DNA of 64,000 nt from Guyparkeria halophila (lineage in GTDB: Bacteria > Pseudomonadota > Gammaproteobacteria > Halothiobacillales > Halothiobacillaceae): contig NZ_CP140153.1 of NCBI RefSeq assembly GCF_034479635.1, positions 1,867,501 to 1,931,500 on the forward strand, read 5' to 3'. Of this stretch, positions 43,991 through 52,093 are shown piece after piece (position 1 is the first letter of the stretch; each line of letters opens with the position of its first letter). The position numbers and the translations under genes were made by a program. Under the pieces are notes generated by a model, which ran no database searches, had not been told where the DNA came from, and saw nothing but the letters and a program-made list of their open reading frames with translations.

Positions 43991-44081
43991 TGGCGGAGAG
44001 GCAGGGATTCGAACCCTGGGACCCCGCGAGGGGGTCAACGGTTTTCGAGACCGCCCCGTTCGACCGCTCCGGCACCTCTCC
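43991..44081 (-). tRNA. tRNA-Ser (CGA anticodon)
   Basis: On the minus strand a 91-nt class II tRNA starts GGAGAGGTGCCGGAGCGGTC and ends CTCTCCGCCA with encoded CCA. The anticodon loop CTCGAAA gives CGA for UCG codons. A long variable arm (GACCCCCTCGCGGGGTC) and GGTTCGAATCC T arm are clear. Confidence 0.95.
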
Positions 44082-44144
44082 AAACGGGAAGGACGCGACC
44101 TCGGTCGCGTCCGCGCCCGGCTATCGAACCGGGCTACACAAAAC

Positions 44145-44235
<91 letters not shown>

Positions 44236-44375: not shown

Positions 44376-45593
44376 ATGAATATGCCGTGTGAACCCGACG
44401 TCACTCGCCTCCGCCACCAGCCCCTGCGACGCACCTTGATCGCGACCCGACCGACCTTTCTGCTGCTGGCGGTGGTCGCCGTCGGCATCGGGCTGGCAAC
44501 AGCCCAAACGTCAGGATTGACGCTCGACCCGCTATGGGCCGCGCTGACGCTGGCCGGGGCCGTCAGCCTGCATGCTGCCGCGAATGTGCACAACGACCTT
44601 GCGGACGACCTCAACGGCAGTGACGCCGCCAACCAGGACCGCCAATTCCCGTTCACCGGCGGTAGCCGGATGATCCAGAGCGGTGTGACGACGCCCCAGG
44701 CGACGCAATGGCTCGCCCGGTGGCTCTACGCCCTGACCATCGGCATCGGACTGATCCTGCTGATCCCGGGCGGCTGGCCGCTGCTTGCCCTCGGCGCCCT
44801 CGGCCTGCTGATGGCCTGGGCGTATTCGGCACCAACCATCTCTCTGAATGCCAGGGGCCTTGGCGAGATTGCCGTTGGCATCGGATTCGGCATCTTGATG
44901 CCACTGGGCGCGGACGCAGTCCAACGCGGCGAGTTACACAACCTGCCGATGTTCGCCGGGGCCGGCTTTGCGCTGATGACATCGAGGGAAACGCTGCACG
45001 ATTCGATGGCGCCTCTGGCTGGCGGGTTTGTTCGCAATCAAGGCGCCTTGCCGAAGGCGGGCTCATTGCCCGGCGAGGGACGGCAACGCCGAGTGCGGGC
45101 AAACCCGCCAGCCCCATTCGGGCGAACCGCCAAGGACCCATTTGCAGCGTTGCAGTCCTTGTGAAGGACCACCGCCATTCACGGCGGACTGCGCCTTGCA
45201 ACTGGGCCCTTGGCGGTCCCGCAGAGGCACTATCGAATCGTGCAGCGTTTCCCTAGCCTGCTGCTGATCAACCAGTTCCCAGACTTCAAGGCCGACCGCC
45301 TCGCCGGCAAGCGTCACTGGGTGGTTCGCCTGGGCAGACGCCGGGCCCGTTATGCCTTTTTGACCACCACCGCAGCCGCCTACCTCGTGCCCGTGCTGTT
45401 CGTTGCCATTGGCAGCTTGCCGAATGCCGTCCTGGCAATCCTGGTGGCCTTGCCGCTGTCCCTGCTCGCCGGGCGGGACCTCTGGACGCATCATTCCACC
45501 CCGAACCGCCTGCGCCGAGCGCTGGCGGCAACCGTCGCCGCGACGCTGCTTTACGGCAGCCTGACGATTGCCGGACTCATTTTCGCTTGGTGA
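44376..45593 (+). pseudogene. UbiA/MenA-family prenyltransferase split by a 270-bp element
   Basis: The intact gene would encode an intramembrane prenyltransferase of about 315 residues of the MenA type. The first part (to about 44984) carries TLIATRPTFLLLAVVAVGIG, the metal/diphosphate motif NVHNDLADDLNGSDAANQDR and several helices up to AGAGFALMTS. The gene then enters the mobile element at 44985 and, after exactly 270 bp, resumes in the same frame with LLLINQFPDFKADRLAGKRHWVVRLG, the second conserved motif. One TGA (45162-45164) inside the element ends translation; the rest of the element is open in frame. It overlaps the rlmD 3' end by 17 bp, convergently. Without readthrough it is inactive. 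Confidence 0.85.
44985..45254. mobile_element. MITE-like element, full copy (C), inside the prenyltransferase gene
   Basis: The element is 270 bp, from AGGGAAACGCTGCACGATTC to its inverted end at 45254 (31 of 33 positions complementary). Interior features shared with copy B are ATCAAGGCGC near the left end, GCGTTGCAGTCCTTG and GGCGGACTGCGCCTTGCA in the centre-right. CAGTCC/GGACTG can pair. No open frame for a transposase is present. No clear target-site duplication is visible. Confidence 0.85.
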
Positions 45594-46965
45594 CACCGGG
45601 CTCCAGGACGGCCATGGACTCGACATGTGCCGTATGGGGAAACATGTCCATCACGCCCGCAGCCAGCAATCGCCAGCCATAATCGTTCACCAACCGGCCG
45701 ACGTCCCGGGCCAGTGACCCCGGGTGGCAGGAGACATAAACCACCCGAGCCGGCTTCATGCGCGCAATCACCGGCATCATGGCCTCGGCACCCGCCCGCG
45801 GTGGGTCGAGCAGGACACGATCGAACGACTGGTTCATCCAGCCGTGGCCGGCATCGGGCTCGAACAGGTTGCCGACCACGTGGCGCGTGTTCTCGATGCC
45901 ATTGCTCGCCGCACAGGCGGCGCCGCGCTCGACCATCGCCTCATCCGCCTCCACGGCGGTAACCAGCCCAGTCGAACCAGTCTGGCGGGCCAGCGGCAGG
46001 CCGAAATTGCCCAGGCCGGCAAACAGGTCCAGCACCCGATCGCCCGGCTTGACCGCCAGCCACTCCAGCGCCTGGTGCACCATGCGCTGATTGATCTCGG
46101 CATTCACCTGAGCGAAGTCCAGCGGCGAGAAGCGGATCTCGACATCGCACTCCTCGAGTCGGTAGCTCGGGTAGACATCACGTGCGCCCTTCGCCAGCGG
46201 CTCGAGGCTGTCCGGGCCGCCGGGCTGCAGGAAGATGGCGAAGCCGTGCTCGTCGGCAAAGGCATCCAGGCGCGCCCGGTCGGCCTCCCCGAGCGGCACC
46301 ATGTGGCGAAAGGCCAAGGCGCAGTGCGCATCGCCACAGCCCACCTCGATCTGGGGAATGTCTCGCCGGGCCTCCATCTCGCCGATCAGTTCGGCGATCG
46401 CCGGCAATCGCTCGCCCACCCGCGGATCGAGCACCGGACAGATGTCGATATCGGCGAGCAGCGGCGAACCGAGTTCGCGAAACCCGACCACCGCGCGCCC
46501 CTTCTTGCGCACGAAGCGCACGCCCAGCCGCGCCATGCGACGGTAGCCCCAGATCGGCCCCGTCAACGGCTCGAGCACCTGCTCCGGCGCCACCCGCCCG
46601 ATGCGCGATAATTGATCCAGCAAGGCCTGCTGCTTGTGTCGGACCTGCGCCTCGGGGGCCAGATGCTGCATGGCGCAGCCGCCACAGTGGTGGAAATGCG
46701 GGCAGCCGGGTTCGATGCGCTCCGGACTGGCCCGATCCACCGCCACCGCATCGCCCAGGTCGAAATGCCGGCGCCGGTCGCGGTAGACGAAGCGCACGTC
46801 CTCGCCCGGCAGCGCCCGACCGATGAAGGTCGCCTTGCCATCGACGTGGGCCACTCCCCGTCCCTCGAGGGTCAGCGACTCGATGTGGGCGTCGAACTCG
46901 CCCGGCGGCAGCGGCCTGGCGTGCTTGTGCTTGTGGCGTTTTTTGCGATGAGCGGTGCGGGCCAT
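45577..46965 (-). CDS. rlmD: 23S rRNA (uracil-1939-C5)-methyltransferase RlmD
   Basis: RlmD methylates U1939 of 23S rRNA with SAM. I start it at MARTAHRKKRHKHKHARP (46965), 462 residues; the longer upstream frame contains the cysM terminator. The protein has a basic N-terminus, a TRAM domain (about 20-80), iron-sulfur cysteines Cys88, Cys94, Cys97 (CPHFHHCGGC) with a fourth in DICPVLD, SAM motif LDLFAGLGNFGLPLA, LLDPPRAGAEAM and the catalytic cysteine in VYVSCHPGSLARD. It follows cysM, the conserved pseudomonad order. Confidence 0.95.
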   Translation of the reverse strand: MARTAHRKKRHKHKHARPLPPGEFDAHIESLTLEGRGVAHVDGKATFIGRALPGEDVRFVYRDRRRHFDLGDAVAVDRASPERIEPGCPHFHHCGGCAMQHLAPEAQVRHKQQALLDQLSRIGRVAPEQVLEPLTGPIWGYRRMARLGVRFVRKKGRAVVGFRELGSPLLADIDICPVLDPRVGERLPAIAELIGEMEARRDIPQIEVGCGDAHCALAFRHMVPLGEADRARLDAFADEHGFAIFLQPGGPDSLEPLAKGARDVYPSYRLEECDVEIRFSPLDFAQVNAEINQRMVHQALEWLAVKPGDRVLDLFAGLGNFGLPLARQTGSTGLVTAVEADEAMVERGAACAASNGIENTRHVVGNLFEPDAGHGWMNQSFDRVLLDPPRAGAEAMMPVIARMKPARVVYVSCHPGSLARDVGRLVNDYGWRLLAAGVMDMFPHTAHVESMAVLEPGVTKRK

Positions 46966-46982
46966 CGATTTCTCGATCAGAG

Positions 46983-47023
46983 GAAAGACAAAGGCCCTGC
47001 CGCAGGGAATGCGTGGCAGGGCC
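46983..47023 (-). terminator. Terminator after cysM
   Basis: GGCCCTGCC (46993-47001) and GGCAGGGCC (47015-47023) pair; on the minus strand TTTGTCTTTCC follows. It lies between the cysM stop and the rlmD start, so rlmD may depend on readthrough or its own promoter. Confidence 0.75.
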
Positions 47024-47071
47024 GGCTCTGGGAGGTCTGCTCGCAGCCCCTCCCTCGGACAATCAGGGCAA

Positions 47072-47974
47072 TCAGCCCGCCGGGAAGACCCCGGTGGACA
47101 AGTAGCGGTCACCACGGTCGCAGACGATGGTGACGATCACGGCACTCTCCACCTCGGCGGAGATCTTCAGCGCCGCGGCCATCGCGCCGCCCGAGGAAAT
47201 CCCGGCCATGATGCCCTCCTCGCGCGCCAGCCGCCGGGTCATTTCCTCGGCCTCGTCCTGGTCGATGTCCAGCGTGCGGTCGACGCGAGCGGGCTCGAAG
47301 ATGCTGGGCAGGTATTCGGTCGGCCAGCGTCGGATGCCCGGAATCTGCGCGCCCTCGCCCGGCTGAACGCCGACGATCTGCACGCCGGAATTCTGCTCCT
47401 TGAGGTAGTGCGAGGTGCCCATGATCGTGCCGGTGGTGCCCATCGCCGAAACGAAGTGCGTTACCCGGCCTTCGGTCGCCGCCCAGATCTCCGGGCCGGT
47501 CGTCAGGTAGTGGGCGCGCGGATTGTCCGGGTTGGCGAACTGATCGAGCACCACGCCCTCGCCCCGCGCGGCCATGGCGGCGGCGAGATCCCGCGCGCCC
47601 TCCATGCCCTCCTCGCGGGAGACGAGCCTGAGCTCGGCCCCGTAGGCGGCCATCGACTGGCGTCGCTCGATCGACATGTGCTCGGGCATGATCAGTGTCA
47701 GGCGCAGGCCCAGCGTGGCGGCCACCATCGCCAGGGCGATGCCGGTATTGCCGGAGGTCGCCTCGACCAATCGGTCACCGGGCTTGATCTCGCCGCGCTC
47801 CATGGCGCCTGCGATCATCGAATGGGCAGCGCGATCCTTCACCGACCCGGCCGGATTGTTGCCTTCGAGCTTGCCGAGAATCACGTTGCCGCGCGCCGCC
47901 CCCGTGGGGTCGAGGCGCTGGATACGCGCCAACGGCGTGTTGCCGATCAATTGATCAAGACGGTGACCTAACAT
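47072..47974 (-). CDS. cysM: Cysteine synthase B
   Basis: CysM makes cysteine from O-acetylserine and sulfide or thiosulfate. The 300-residue PLP enzyme has the lysine Lys46 in NNPAGSVKDRAA, EATSGNTGIALAM and MGTTGTIMGTSHYL; the RRWPTEYLPSIF segment with the arginine pair is of the CysM rather than CysK type. It diverges from the GacS/BarA-like gene at 48 kb and precedes rlmD. Confidence 0.95.
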   Translation of the reverse strand: MLGHRLDQLIGNTPLARIQRLDPTGAARGNVILGKLEGNNPAGSVKDRAAHSMIAGAMERGEIKPGDRLVEATSGNTGIALAMVAATLGLRLTLIMPEHMSIERRQSMAAYGAELRLVSREEGMEGARDLAAAMAARGEGVVLDQFANPDNPRAHYLTTGPEIWAATEGRVTHFVSAMGTTGTIMGTSHYLKEQNSGVQIVGVQPGEGAQIPGIRRWPTEYLPSIFEPARVDRTLDIDQDEAEEMTRRLAREEGIMAGISSGGAMAAALKISAEVESAVIVTIVCDRGDRYLSTGVFPAG

Positions 47975-48060: not shown

Positions 48061-50331
48061 GTGAACGCTCCGATCCGCACAACACAGACCGCCACACGAC
48101 GGGGCTCCACCGGCCGCCTAGCCCTGCCGGGAGCGGCTCTGCCGTGGATCCTCGCCCTTGCCGCCCCACCCCTACTGCTGGCCGTGGAGGCGCTCGTTTC
48201 CCAGCGCGCCCTGCCCTCGCCCGGATTCTGGGCGATGACCATCGGCTGGACGGGGACCTGGCTCACACTCGCCGGTTTGTCGGCCGCCGTTTCGTGGCAT
48301 CGGCGACGCTCACTCCCCGCCGACGTCGCGCCACCGGCCCAGTCGGCGCCACCCATCCACCGCCACGCACCGGAAAGCCAGCTTTCCGCCGCCTCGGTGC
48401 TCGAACTGGTCAACCAGCAATGGGTGACGCCACTGGGACACATTCGCTCGGCCGTCGACAGCCTCGCCACGCTGGAACGGCGCCTGAGCCGCTGCGCGCC
48501 GCCGGCCAAGGACGGCCAGCAGGAACCGGCCCGATCGCTCCAGCTGATGCGCCACGCCAGCCACCGCCTGCGCATCTCGATCGAGAACATCATCGACTAC
48601 CACGAGATCACCGCCGGGCGCATGACGCGCACCGACGGGCGCGTCAATCTGCGCACCACCGGCGAGGACCTGGTCACCGACTGGCAGACCACCGCCCAGC
48701 GTGATGGCGAGGTCCTGCAGTTCATCGGCTACCAGGATCTGCCGCGCGAGATCGTGTTCGATCCGCAGATGCTGCGCCGCCTGCTCGACCGGTTGCTCAA
48801 CGAGATCCTAGGCATTGCCCATCTGCGCGAGCCGGCCATCACGCTGGAACTCGAGGACGATTACGAGAACGATGGCGGCGACCGACTGGGACGCTTTCGC
48901 CTGACCGTCGATGGGCAGGCCCGTGACGGCTCTCTGGATCAGCAACAGCTGGCCGAGCGCCTGGCACAACCGCTACCGGAGCAGCTCGAGGGCCTGCTGG
49001 CCGACGACCTGATCGACCTCTGGATCCTGCGCTGTATCTCCCATCATCTCGATTCGGCACTCGAGGTGGTCGAAACCGGTGCCGAGCGCTTCGGCATGAC
49101 CGCGACCTTCAGCGCCCCGATCCTGATCGGCGAACCCGACAGCAGCGACCGGCTGGCCGGACAACTGGCGGCCGTCGTCTGCGCCTCGGCGCAACATCGC
49201 CGTGCCTGGCAAGGCAACCTCGCCGCCCTGGGGGCGAACATCCAGGTCGAGCCGGATTTCGGCCAGCCGGTCGACCTGCTGTTCCTCGACGAGCGCATCG
49301 TCGAACGACACCACGAGGACCCGGCCTTCGGCCAGTGGGTCTCGCTGGCCGGGCGGGTCGTTGGCCTGTCCAGCCACCTGACCATTCGCGGTCGACCGGC
49401 CGCCCCGCTCCACTGGGCGGATTTCACCCTGCCGTTGTTCATTCGCGCCCGGGCGTTGGCCGCCTCACTCGAGCGGGTGCTGGGCGCACCGACACCGGGG
49501 CCGGGTCGCAGCCCAGCCCGCCTTACCCCGACCCGACAGCCCGACAGCGCGCCTACGGTCAGTAACAACGACAAACCACGGCAAGGCACGCCGAGTCGAC
49601 ATGCCTTGTATTCCTTCGCCGGCCGGACCGCGCTGGTAATCGACGACGACCCGGTCTACCTCGCCCACCTGGGGCAAACGCTGCGTGAACTGGGATTCCA
49701 CGTGCTCGAGGCCCCCAACGGCAAGCAGGCATTGGCGCTGGCCGATCACGAAGACATCGACGTGGTGTTTACCGACATGCACATGCCGGACATCACCGGC
49801 GCCGGCGTCGCCCGCATCCTGAAAAAGCGCCCGCGCCACCTGGAAACCCCGATTATCGCCATCACGGCCAACCGGCAGGGCAACGTGCACCAGGATCTGC
49901 TGCACAGCGGTATCGAGCGGGTACTGACCAAACCGGTCACCGCCGGCGACCTGTTGAGTGCGATCGGCGAATTCTTTCCCCTCGAGACGCACGGGCGCAG
50001 CGCCCCGGAGACCAACCCGCCCGCCACAGGCGACCGCAAGGACGAACGCGACCCGTTCCTCACCCGGCTGCTCTGCGATGAACTGCCCGGCTATCGGCGG
50101 CTACTGACCGAACAGGCCGACGATCACGACACATTGCGCCACGCCGCGCACAAACTCCGGGGCGCAGCCGCCTGCTGTCGTGAAACCGAGTTGCAGACAC
50201 TCGCCGGTGAGCTCGAGGATGCGCTAGACGCCAACGAATCGGCCGAAGGCATCGCGCCACGCATCGACGCCCTGATTCGCTGCATCGACGGCATCAACGC
50301 CCACCCGGCCTGCAATACGAGTGCCACCTGA
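48061..50331 (+). CDS. GacS/BarA-like hybrid sensor protein with degenerate kinase (HisKA*-REC-HPt)
   Basis: The product (756 residues from a GTG at 48061 with AAAGG upstream; ATGs at 48004 and 48043 are alternatives) has two N-terminal membrane segments, a HisKA-like helix pair, a degraded ATPase region, a pseudo-receiver, then an intact receiver (VIDDDPVYLAHL, phosphoacceptor Asp in VVFTDMHMP, Lys in LTKPV) and an HPt domain with His in RHAAHKLRGAA. In the H-box the usual SHEIRTPL reads NQQWVTPL, so the phosphoacceptor His is Gln (about residue 119). No DxGxG G-box is visible. Position beside cysM-rlmD is that of gacS in Pseudomonas. It probably relays rather than makes phosphate. Confidence 0.85.
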   Translation: MNAPIRTTQTATRRGSTGRLALPGAALPWILALAAPPLLLAVEALVSQRALPSPGFWAMTIGWTGTWLTLAGLSAAVSWHRRRSLPADVAPPAQSAPPIHRHAPESQLSAASVLELVNQQWVTPLGHIRSAVDSLATLERRLSRCAPPAKDGQQEPARSLQLMRHASHRLRISIENIIDYHEITAGRMTRTDGRVNLRTTGEDLVTDWQTTAQRDGEVLQFIGYQDLPREIVFDPQMLRRLLDRLLNEILGIAHLREPAITLELEDDYENDGGDRLGRFRLTVDGQARDGSLDQQQLAERLAQPLPEQLEGLLADDLIDLWILRCISHHLDSALEVVETGAERFGMTATFSAPILIGEPDSSDRLAGQLAAVVCASAQHRRAWQGNLAALGANIQVEPDFGQPVDLLFLDERIVERHHEDPAFGQWVSLAGRVVGLSSHLTIRGRPAAPLHWADFTLPLFIRARALAASLERVLGAPTPGPGRSPARLTPTRQPDSAPTVSNNDKPRQGTPSRHALYSFAGRTALVIDDDPVYLAHLGQTLRELGFHVLEAPNGKQALALADHEDIDVVFTDMHMPDITGAGVARILKKRPRHLETPIIAITANRQGNVHQDLLHSGIERVLTKPVTAGDLLSAIGEFFPLETHGRSAPETNPPATGDRKDERDPFLTRLLCDELPGYRRLLTEQADDHDTLRHAAHKLRGAAACCRETELQTLAGELEDALDANESAEGIAPRIDALIRCIDGINAHPACNTSAT

Positions 50332-50464
50332 ATGCATCGTCTGGCGCGGTTGGTTATATAAGATCCCGCTGATTCAGATCGCGTCAATTCGCTGCTAGGA
50401 TGCTTTCAAGGGCTTCACCCAGGGTCGGGTGACAGGAACGACGAGCAGGGAAGGAACAGGGACA

Positions 50465-52093
50465 ATGCAACTCGACAACGCCACGGCGGACGGAGGGACC
50501 TTTTCGGGCATGGTCGTCTTTCTTTGCACTGCCGCCGGGCGCGTCCTCAGCGCCAGCCCTCGAGCGGACGAGCTGTTCCCGACCAACGGCGAGCAGACCC
50601 TTCGCGAACGCCTGGAACGTCGTCTGCGCATGAACCCTGGCCCGTCACTGGGGAGCGCGCTGATCGATGGCGAGGAAACCTCCCTGATCGGGCTGATGGA
50701 CAACCGGGAGATCACGCTCGGCATCACCCCGCTCGACGAGCACCAGCGACTGGTCGTCCTGCTGGAAAGCCTCTGCCCGCACACCAGCCTGGATTCGCTT
50801 ACCGGCCTGCCGGACCGCAGCGCCATGCTCGAGCGCATCCGCGACATCCAGTCCGATGGGGACGGTGGCCATCGCCTGATGCTGGTCGACATCGACCGGC
50901 TCAAGACCGTCAACGATTATCTGGGCTACCACGTCGGCGACCGGGTCATCCGCGATCTGGCCGGCGCCATGCAGGCAACCGTCCCCGACGACGTGATGGC
51001 CGCGCGCTGGAGCGGTCACGAGTTCATGCTCCTGATCCCGCCCCGCCAGGCCGAACGCACCAAACAGATCGCCGAAAGCATCCGCGCGTCTGCCGCGAAT
51101 GTACGCTTCAACGGTGGCGACGACGCGCCGCCGCTGGGTTCCCTTACCGTCAGCATCGGTCACGGTGCGCTCGGCCCCGGCGAAACATCCCGCACCCAGC
51201 CTCGCGATCAACTCAGTGCGCTCAATGCCGCCGTCTACGAGGCCAAGCGCACCGGCCGCGACCGCGTCGTCAACGCCGACCGGCTGCTGCAGCCCTCCGT
51301 ATACACGACCGGCGGCGCGCTCGATCGCGCCATCCACGAGGGACGTATCGTCGCCGCCAGCCAGCCGATCGTCGACCTCCGGAGCGGCGAGGTGGTCGCC
51401 GACGAGGCGCTGGCCCGCATGATCACCCCCGAAGGCGACGTCATCCCGGCGGGTCTGTTCATCGATGCCGCCTCGCGGTTGCAGATGGCCCACCGGATCG
51501 ACTTCGAGATCATCAACCAGACCATCAACAACTGTGTCGCCTCGATCGATCATCGACCGATGGCGCATTTCGTCAACATTTCGGGCGACTTCCTGCAGCA
51601 CCCCGAACTGATGGAGCGGGTGATCACCAACGCCCAGGCCGCCTGCGAGTGTATCGATGCGACGGGAAACCCAGGCCCCAAGCCCCTGGTCCTGGAAATG
51701 ACGGAACGCGAGGTACTCGAAGACACGTCAGATGCCTTGAGCGCACTCAAGCCCCTGATCGATTTCGGCCTGCGACTTGCCCTGGACGACTTTGGCAGCG
51801 GCTACTCCTCCTACCGCTATCTGCTCGACATGCCGTTCACCTTCCTCAAGATCGAAGGTGCGCTGGTGCAGAACATGAGTGACAGCGTGCGGGCGCAGAA
51901 GATCGTCCAGCACATCCAGTCCATGGCCAAGGACATGGGACTGATCACGGTCGCCGAGTTCATCGGCGATGAGCGAACCGCCGACATGCTGCGCGAGATG
52001 GGGATCGACTGGGGCCAGGGCTTTTACTTCGGCCGACCGGAGATCATCCGTCCGCTGAAAAGCGAAAACCGCGAGGTCATTCACGACATCTAG
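50465..52093 (+). CDS. GGDEF-EAL cyclic-di-GMP protein, probably a phosphodiesterase
   Basis: The 542-residue protein has a PAS-like N-terminal part (1-105), a GGDEF domain (about 110-275) and an EAL domain (about 285-535). The GGDEF signature reads WSGHEF (182-187), with Ser for Gly and His for Asp/Glu, so cyclase activity is doubtful. The EAL domain keeps DEALAR (Glu314), FVNISGDFL, LEMTERE, LDDFGSGYSS (Asp441-Asp442), FLKIEGALV and GQGFYFGRP, so c-di-GMP hydrolysis is expected, perhaps regulated by GTP at the degenerate GGDEF. No membrane helix is seen. AGGAACAGGG precedes the ATG. It lies 133 bp after the GacS-like gene on the same strand. Confidence 0.92.
   Translation: MQLDNATADGGTFSGMVVFLCTAAGRVLSASPRADELFPTNGEQTLRERLERRLRMNPGPSLGSALIDGEETSLIGLMDNREITLGITPLDEHQRLVVLLESLCPHTSLDSLTGLPDRSAMLERIRDIQSDGDGGHRLMLVDIDRLKTVNDYLGYHVGDRVIRDLAGAMQATVPDDVMAARWSGHEFMLLIPPRQAERTKQIAESIRASAANVRFNGGDDAPPLGSLTVSIGHGALGPGETSRTQPRDQLSALNAAVYEAKRTGRDRVVNADRLLQPSVYTTGGALDRAIHEGRIVAASQPIVDLRSGEVVADEALARMITPEGDVIPAGLFIDAASRLQMAHRIDFEIINQTINNCVASIDHRPMAHFVNISGDFLQHPELMERVITNAQAACECIDATGNPGPKPLVLEMTEREVLEDTSDALSALKPLIDFGLRLALDDFGSGYSSYRYLLDMPFTFLKIEGALVQNMSDSVRAQKIVQHIQSMAKDMGLITVAEFIGDERTADMLREMGIDWGQGFYFGRPEIIRPLKSENREVIHDI

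Follow-up and report, generated by a model that had tools for sequence, protein, structure and literature searches.

A kinase-dead GacS orthologue at the cysM–rlmD locus of Guyparkeria halophila, a putative phosphotransfer node

GacS is a widely conserved, textbook global sensor kinase. The window analysed here, a stretch of 64,000 nucleotides from Guyparkeria halophila (G000:C1:1867501-1931500; the genome, G000, is a single contig of 2,452,836 bases with an estimated completeness of 100%), carries in the gacS position an open reading frame (ORF) whose product has receiver (REC) and HPt domains and lacks the phosphoacceptor histidine and the ATP-binding motifs. Is this protein GacS and, if so, what could a GacS of this kind be kept for? 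By position and by profile homology the ORF at 48061–50331 is GacS and, judged from sequence comparison across two genera of sulfur-oxidising bacteria, the place of GacS is taken by a pseudokinase that is fixed and under selection. We consider it fairly probable, although by no means assured, that the protein is a membrane-anchored REC–HPt phosphotransfer node for GacA: GacS by descent, and no longer a sensor kinase.

A protein search of 57 genomes at E ≤ 1e-20 gave matches in 21: ten of the 11 genomes of the window genus (Guyparkeria-like; the one without a match, G004, is 64% complete), all ten of a second genus (g4), which we take to be Halothiobacillus of the same family, the single genome of a third genus of the family (g2, G011), none of five g3 genomes and none of 30 other members of the class. 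Comparisons below use the 20 orthologues of the first two genera. Eight close relatives are 67–94% identical to the window protein in the best segment, and the second-genus orthologues 38–41% identical in nine genomes, with that of G026 matching in two pieces (52 and 35%).

A preliminary description of the window had placed the gene in the gacS position beside cysM and rlmD. Both neighbours are identified by their NCBIfam models, and an intact GacS of 889 residues, with the motifs LSHEIRTPM, NLLGNA and DTGPG, lies at cysM–rlmD in G011; Pfam matches HisKA, HATPase_c, Response_reg and Hpt in that protein and no HAMP either. Among the 20 loci compared, cysM adjoins the gene in all, and rlmD is present in the nine Guyparkeria-like loci and in G011 and in none of the ten second-genus stretches examined. 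Alignment with GacS homologues, a check proposed in the same description, gave homology over DHp, CA and a degenerate receiver: hhalign placed a profile of the 20 orthologues on three intact GacS-type proteins (98.1% probability, 17% identity) over 341 columns, starting at the H-box and taking in the whole of the degenerate receiver. The NCBIfam BarA model scores 91.8 bits against a cut-off of 890, from the REC–HPt part alone; the missed cut-off by itself says little, because the intact GacS of G011 misses it too (343.8 bits).

The frame opens at TTG 47980 or ATG 48061, both reading to the same end on the + strand. The ATG (MPQRPSVN) is the better start, because the matching methionine is the first in-frame start in five of the nine other orthologues of the genus (L011–L015). 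In the longer frame of 783 residues (TTG start), Pfam finds only Response_reg (552–662) and Hpt (698–772), plus a sub-threshold, overlapping AmiR_N; HisKA and HATPase_c are absent even at E ≤ 1, and there is no Pfam match to HAMP, to a sensor domain or to 7TMR-DISM, the input domain of LadS and RetS. Two predicted membrane helices come first (Table 1), followed by a HisKA/HATPase-like region without a Pfam match, by two receivers, of which the first is degenerate and the second clear, and by HPt. In the full-length AlphaFold2 model, a weak one used for helix order only (predicted local distance difference test, pLDDT, 65.2; predicted template modelling score 0.42), about seven residues join the two membrane helices, and a loop of this length would therefore leave no room for a periplasmic sensor.

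The catalytic motifs bear out the preliminary reading of a replaced H-box, a displaced N-box asparagine and a missing DxGxG. The H-box is NQQWVTPL where GacS reads SHEIRTPM; its consensus is NQ[QHN]W[VI]TPLGHIR and the phosphoacceptor position is glutamine in 20 of 20 orthologues. A misaligned H-box was considered and rejected, as the profile alignment lays NQQWVTPL over SHEIRTPM, and in none of the 20 sequences does a better-aligned box offer a histidine at the aligned position. The nearest histidines lie at +1 (in nine of ten second-genus sequences, with asparagine in G026 and glutamine in all ten of the window genus) and at +8, the invariant histidine of GHIR (20/20); the threonine four residues past the old histidine position is likewise kept in all 20. 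In the N-box, RLLNEILGIA of the window protein stands against NLLGNAIRYT of the intact relative: the first asparagine has become arginine and the second glutamate, with an asparagine one residue before the second place. The second genus retains the first asparagine (NLL), the second being missing in the sequences shown. In place of DTGPG the orthologues read VDGQ, VDAQ or IDGK. The second N-box asparagine, DxGxG and GxGxG are thus lost in both genera, by differing replacements. The receiver aspartate and HPt histidine are intact, as had been described: Pfam matches both domains, the REC acid pocket, the REC aspartate motif and the HPt AHKLRG motif are present in 20 of 20 orthologues, and the acid residues, aspartate and lysine of the receiver and the HPt histidine are conserved in the alignment.

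Loss of the motifs has not been followed by loss of constraint. Across both genera, ten of the 12 positions of the rewritten H-box motif are invariant, against 74 invariant positions among the 393 of the core, and the motif is not surpassed by any other stretch of 12 residues (hypergeometric p 1.6e-6, indicative only, as the motif was chosen after being seen). Within the genus, the median ratio of nonsynonymous to synonymous rates (dN/dS; Nei–Gojobori, pairs not independent) is lowest in REC (0.05), followed by the degenerate receiver (0.09), DHp (0.12), HPt (0.15) and CA (0.18); the linker (0.56) and the N-terminal membrane part (0.58) have much higher values. For DHp, CA and REC all 45 genus pairs could be used, for HPt 37 and for the linker 27; in the second genus, only 7–14 of 45 pairs per region were unsaturated. 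By this measure purifying selection acts on the dead DHp and CA.

The dead DHp/CA core is also predicted to keep the kinase fold. Its model (pLDDT 80.8) shows a DHp hairpin, a CA sandwich and a receiver-like domain, with the first DHp helix at a pLDDT of only ∼54–60. Structural alignment, which covered mainly model residues 28–259 and is therefore read for the DHp and CA parts and not for the degenerate receiver, gave best matches that include ShkA (Z 20.4, root-mean-square deviation (r.m.s.d.) 3.5, 269 residues) and DivL (Z 18.9, r.m.s.d. 2.9, 179 residues); the values against P. aeruginosa GacS are Z 17.8, r.m.s.d. 5.0 and 197 residues, and against RetS Z 15.5, r.m.s.d. 5.3 and 214 residues. 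An intact ATPase domain in a predicted structure had been named as evidence against a dead kinase: the DHp–CA fold is indeed predicted, but the ATP-binding sequence motifs are absent from it.

The simplest reading of the distribution is a single loss before the two genera split. L171 and L173, GacS-type proteins of other families, carry the H-box histidine. A class-wide scan of 369 evenly drawn genomes gave 11 genomes with a match, four strong ones, all within the family, and seven weak ones outside it; six of the seven had a readable frame, all with the H-box histidine (by eye), and the seventh (L174) gave none, so that no second origin of the lost H-box was seen in this sample. The ancestor of the two genera would have lost the periplasmic sensor, HAMP, the phosphoacceptor histidine (now the invariant glutamine) and the ATP site, and would have retained the membrane anchor, the dimerisation/CA fold, the receiver aspartate and the HPt histidine.

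We infer the role of phosphotransfer node from these losses and conservation, from the selection on the dead regions, from the intact REC and HPt domains, from the presence of GacA and CsrA and from the lack of any second GacS among the matches, all of which can be read from the sequences. Phosphate from hybrid kinases lacking an HPt domain (a LadS-like kinase in G000, three hybrids in G015) would enter at HPt or REC and pass to GacA, and in strains without such a kinase REC and HPt may run the other way and drain GacA~P. The dead DHp/CA could serve dimerisation, docking of partner kinases or dephosphorylation of the receiver; some such further role is suggested because an HPt domain alone can relay and yet the core is under selection. 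A fuller picture, in which the Gac system of this clade has been rebuilt around an input-less pseudokinase, with NQxWxTPLGHIR acting on the receiver as phosphatase or docking element, REC–HPt gating GacA by relay or drain, and a tie to cyclic di-GMP through the neighbouring gene, is offered tentatively, as possible rather than probable; if true, the laboratory GacS allele with the H-box histidine changed to glutamine would have a natural, fixed counterpart here.

What could feed such a node? Pfam HPt matches at E ≤ 0.01 number five each in G000, G003, G006 and G015 (second genus), ten in G013 and 12 in G011. The five comprise one in a CheA-like frame (695–720 residues), three in a ChpA-like frame (∼2200 residues), both named from architecture, and one in the pseudokinase, which is therefore the sole HPt match outside CheA-like and ChpA-like frames in these four genomes. 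No second intact GacS was seen in them, as HisKA and HPt matches never share a frame; other matches of the pseudokinase within G000 are limited to its linker and receiver. Of the seven HisKA proteins of G000, six are encoded within 4 kb of a separate REC gene. The remaining one, the LadS-like hybrid, has 7TMR-DISM_7TM, HisKA (NTSHELRTPL), HATPase_c (DTGIG) and REC and no HPt match, and is the only HisKA protein of the genome (E ≤ 0.001) with a receiver in the same frame. In G015, three hybrids have same-frame receivers (867, at least 1016 and 1167 residues), with no HPt found by Pfam, and a fourth frame of 462 residues appears to hold HisKA and REC. The census covers kinases that match the HisKA and HATPase models. 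Three weak or unpaired HATPase matches of G000 were rejected as orphan kinases, being an ATPase-only protein, an HtpG-like protein and what looks like an AlgZ/LytS-type kinase beside its regulator (the latter two by eye). Other HATPase frames without HisKA, in G000 (194684, 2132971, 2173037) and G006 (1811824, 1374070, 1415522, 1403244), were assumed from size and position not to be kinases. The ATPase-only protein, of 642 residues at L182:224-2152 (G000:C1 near 96840), has HATPase-type Pfam domains only (HATPase_c_3, HATPase_c) and is not a histidine kinase.

The partners of a Gac pathway are in part recognizable. A gacA/uvrY gene, which the preliminary description had proposed to look for, was found: in G000 and G015 the gene immediately upstream of uvrC encodes a regulator that scores best with the NCBIfam UvrY/SirA/GacA model (192 bits; cut-off 280), and in G003 such a regulator immediately precedes a uvrC-like frame (by eye). 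The assignment is made mainly by the place beside uvrC, because the model is below its cut-off in every genome here and unspecific, matching also six of 14 control genomes at E ≤ 1e-30. CsrA is present in eight of eight genomes. In the g3 genome G014 the GacA-like match is weaker (130 bits); in G012, also of g3, CsrA is present, but neither a GacA-like regulator (E ≤ 1e-30) nor a pseudokinase match (E ≤ 1e-20) was found.

For csrB-like RNAs, proposed as a further check, the outcome was divided, with candidates in G015 and G013 and none in the Guyparkeria-like genomes searched. The single Rfam CsrB model has no match in G000, G003, G006 and G012 and matches far below its cut-off in four of eight genomes; the same threshold matches five of 14 control genomes. 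The two candidates are intergenic and unannotated, upstream of queA (L180:1395-1815 in G015, L181:1359-1780 in G013), and score far below the Rfam cut-off; each stretch holds 17 A.GGA motifs, compared with means of 6.6 (G015) and 4.5 (G013) and maxima of 13 and 12 in 500 dinucleotide shuffles. From their sequences they look real. At L179:1450-1680 of G014, a GGA-rich stretch precedes a terminator-like hairpin, with five A.GGA motifs, a number within the range of shuffles (mean 2.8, maximum 8). The GacA box is TGTAAG-N6-CTTACA. Sites with one mismatch, one each in two of five genomes, were taken as chance, the reversed control having sites in three of five; that of G000 is inside an ORF and that of G013 overlaps the start of a chaperonin-like gene.

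Several observations weigh against a relay to GacA. The LadS-like kinase was found in only three of the ten genus genomes (three of the other seven are 79–87% complete): 7TMR-DISM_7TM in a frame of 927–958 residues was found in G000, G003 and G010 only, with the 7TM part alone seen in G010. In the complete genome G006 there is no hybrid HisKA kinase, and all eight HisKA kinases found have a REC gene within 4 kb. The earlier suggestion that the protein is fed by another kinase, to be sought among orphan kinases, thus finds a candidate in G000 but none in G006 and does not, as the evidence stands, amount to a general rule. No csrB-like RNA was found in the Guyparkeria-like genomes searched, and the output end of the pathway was not seen there. 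In P. aeruginosa, overproduced LadS is described as signalling via the HPt domain of GacS alone (PMC4866733); if HPt alone suffices, a pure relay role leaves the kept DHp/CA unexplained. The absence of catalytic motifs is itself no proof that all activity is lost, since RcsD, also without the histidine, was autophosphorylated in vitro according to one paper, which cites another group as having seen no such reaction (PMC3762810).

Alternatively, the protein might mainly take phosphate away, from GacA~P to HPt, to REC and to inorganic phosphate, with GacA charged by acetyl phosphate or cross-talk and the H-box glutamine and threonine perhaps aiding hydrolysis. Such a drain fits genomes in which no candidate feeder was found, such as G006, and it suits the rewritten H-box, which is conserved more strongly than any other 12 residues of the core and has its threonine at +4 in every orthologue; G000 and G015, however, do have hybrid kinases in which no HPt was detected, and we regard a role mainly as a drain as rather unlikely. 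The selection on DHp/CA despite the lost catalytic motifs, together with the fold match to DivL and RetS, would also be expected of an allosteric partner that heterodimerises with other kinases or acts as DivL does on CckA, with REC and HPt secondary; ChrS–HrrS heterodimers (PMC9491836), the RetS–GacS heterodimer (PMC4866733) and DivL–CckA (PMC12189002) are described precedents. Such a partner does not need REC to be the most constrained domain or the HPt motif to be invariant, and this explanation seems to us improbable. Still less likely is a moved phosphoacceptor, in which the GHIR histidine would be phosphorylated in trans by the CA domain of another kinase: the residue is invariant, and the cytoplasmic domain of RcsD is reported to be labelled in vitro despite its missing histidine (PMC3762810), but GHIR is off the usual place on the helix and the protein's own CA has no ATP motifs. 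A decaying relic heading for loss, to which the fast evolution of the membrane part and linker might point, is already disfavoured and barely credible, given open frames in 20 of 20 loci, the same derived motif in both genera and low dN/dS in the dead core.

The putative phosphotransfer node can be set beside several known systems. With GacS/BarA the window protein shares the cysM–rlmD locus, the domain order, a degenerate and a true receiver, HPt and profile homology, and it differs in having no phosphoacceptor histidine, ATP motifs, periplasmic sensor or HAMP. LadS-type modulation of GacS, invoked as a precedent in the preliminary description, is an apt one: in P. aeruginosa, LadS is reported to signal through its receiver to the GacS HPt domain, doing so at natural levels even with the H-box histidine of GacS changed to glutamine, and to require its receiver aspartate for transfer in vitro (PMC4866733). 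Common to that LadS–GacS–GacA relay and to the present case are a hybrid kinase available to feed the GacS HPt domain and the histidine-to-glutamine state; P. aeruginosa GacS, however, is an active kinase, whereas in the window clade the change is natural and the LadS-like partner patchy. RcsD is described as membrane-bound, with a kinase-like region from which the histidine is missing and an HPt domain that passes phosphate to RcsB (PMC3762810). The likeness, with RcsD taken from descriptions, is an architectural parallel: an HPt domain on a kinase-like region without phosphoacceptor histidine, behind a predicted membrane anchor. Unlike RcsD, the window protein retains a receiver with an intact aspartate and has no large periplasmic part. 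DivL of Caulobacter is described as a kinase without catalytic activity whose kinase fold is retained for signalling (PMC12189002). A fold kept without catalysis is what the structural match (Z 18.9, r.m.s.d. 2.9, 179 residues) suggests here too. DivL acts on CckA and is not known to have a REC–HPt tail.

Pseudo-histidine kinases are thus already known (DivL, RcsD, a ChrS variant), and one in the GacS position appears to be new: in the open-licence literature we found no report of GacS as a pseudokinase and no study of GacS in Guyparkeria or Halothiobacillus. A clade in which GacS is kinase-dead by sequence and yet selected would separate the kinase role from the phosphotransfer role and offer a natural test of whether the essential contribution of GacS can be that of an HPt node alone. 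It would add a further example of a histidine-kinase pseudoenzyme to DivL and RcsD, and it carries a warning that annotation by locus or as 'hybrid kinase' would label a pseudokinase an active kinase.

Table 1. Features of the kinase-dead GacS orthologue and its neighbours (window coordinates)
Feature	Coordinates	Strand	Basis
Kinase-dead GacS orthologue, 756 residues	48061..50331	+	ORF, Pfam, orthologue alignment, profile homology
Predicted membrane helix 1 (residues 27–46 of 756)	48139..48198	+	Full-length AlphaFold2 model; hydrophobic stretch in sequence
Predicted membrane helix 2 (residues 54–83)	48220..48309	+	Full-length AlphaFold2 model; no HAMP match
Pseudo-DHp (HisKA-like) region	48385..48630	+	Profile alignment, core model, dN/dS, structure match
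Rewritten H-box NQQWVTPLGHIR; Gln codon at phosphoacceptor position, 48415-48417	48412..48447	+	20-sequence alignment
Pseudo-CA (HATPase-like) region; N, G1 and G2 boxes missing	48631..49125	+	Alignment, profile, core model, structure match, dN/dS
Degenerate receiver-like region, aligning with the same region of intact GacS-type proteins	49150..49485	+	Profile, core model, dN/dS
Receiver domain with intact Asp (codon 49774-49776)	49621..49977	+	Pfam Response_reg, whole-protein E 4.3e-24 (783-residue frame); Asp invariant
HPt domain with intact His (codon 50149-50151)	50050..50298	+	Pfam Hpt 4.4e-8; His invariant in alignment
cysM, divergent neighbour	47072..47974	-	NCBIfam cysM above cut-off
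rlmD	45577..47115	-	NCBIfam RlmD above cut-off
GGDEF-EAL gene; degenerate GGDEF site (WSGHEF), EAL catalytic motifs present	50429..52093	+	Pfam EAL 1.8e-52, GGDEF 1.9e-25

The gene directly 3' of the pseudokinase encodes a GGDEF-EAL protein, judged from its motifs to be a probable phosphodiesterase in which the cyclase site is dead. A homologue occupies the same place in all 19 other loci examined (nine of the genus, ten of the second genus); WSGHEF and the checked EAL motif residues are kept in the window and in 18 of the 19 loci (L090 was not included). In the G011 stretch no such homologue was seen; gacS there has a transposase-like frame on its 3' side. The synteny, and it alone, suggests a functional link between the GGDEF-EAL protein and the pseudokinase.

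On the other side of the locus, an element of 270 bp (44985-45254) with 33-bp terminal inverted repeats (94% complementary) splits a gene for a UbiA-family prenyltransferase (44376-45593), which is uninterrupted in the relative L030. A 62-bp piece of the element (84% identical) recurs between cysM and the pseudokinase in L037 and L017, which are from the same genome. Tandem tRNA-Ser genes (cga, gga) lie at 43991-44235 on the - strand, and several mechanically called ORFs overlap them.

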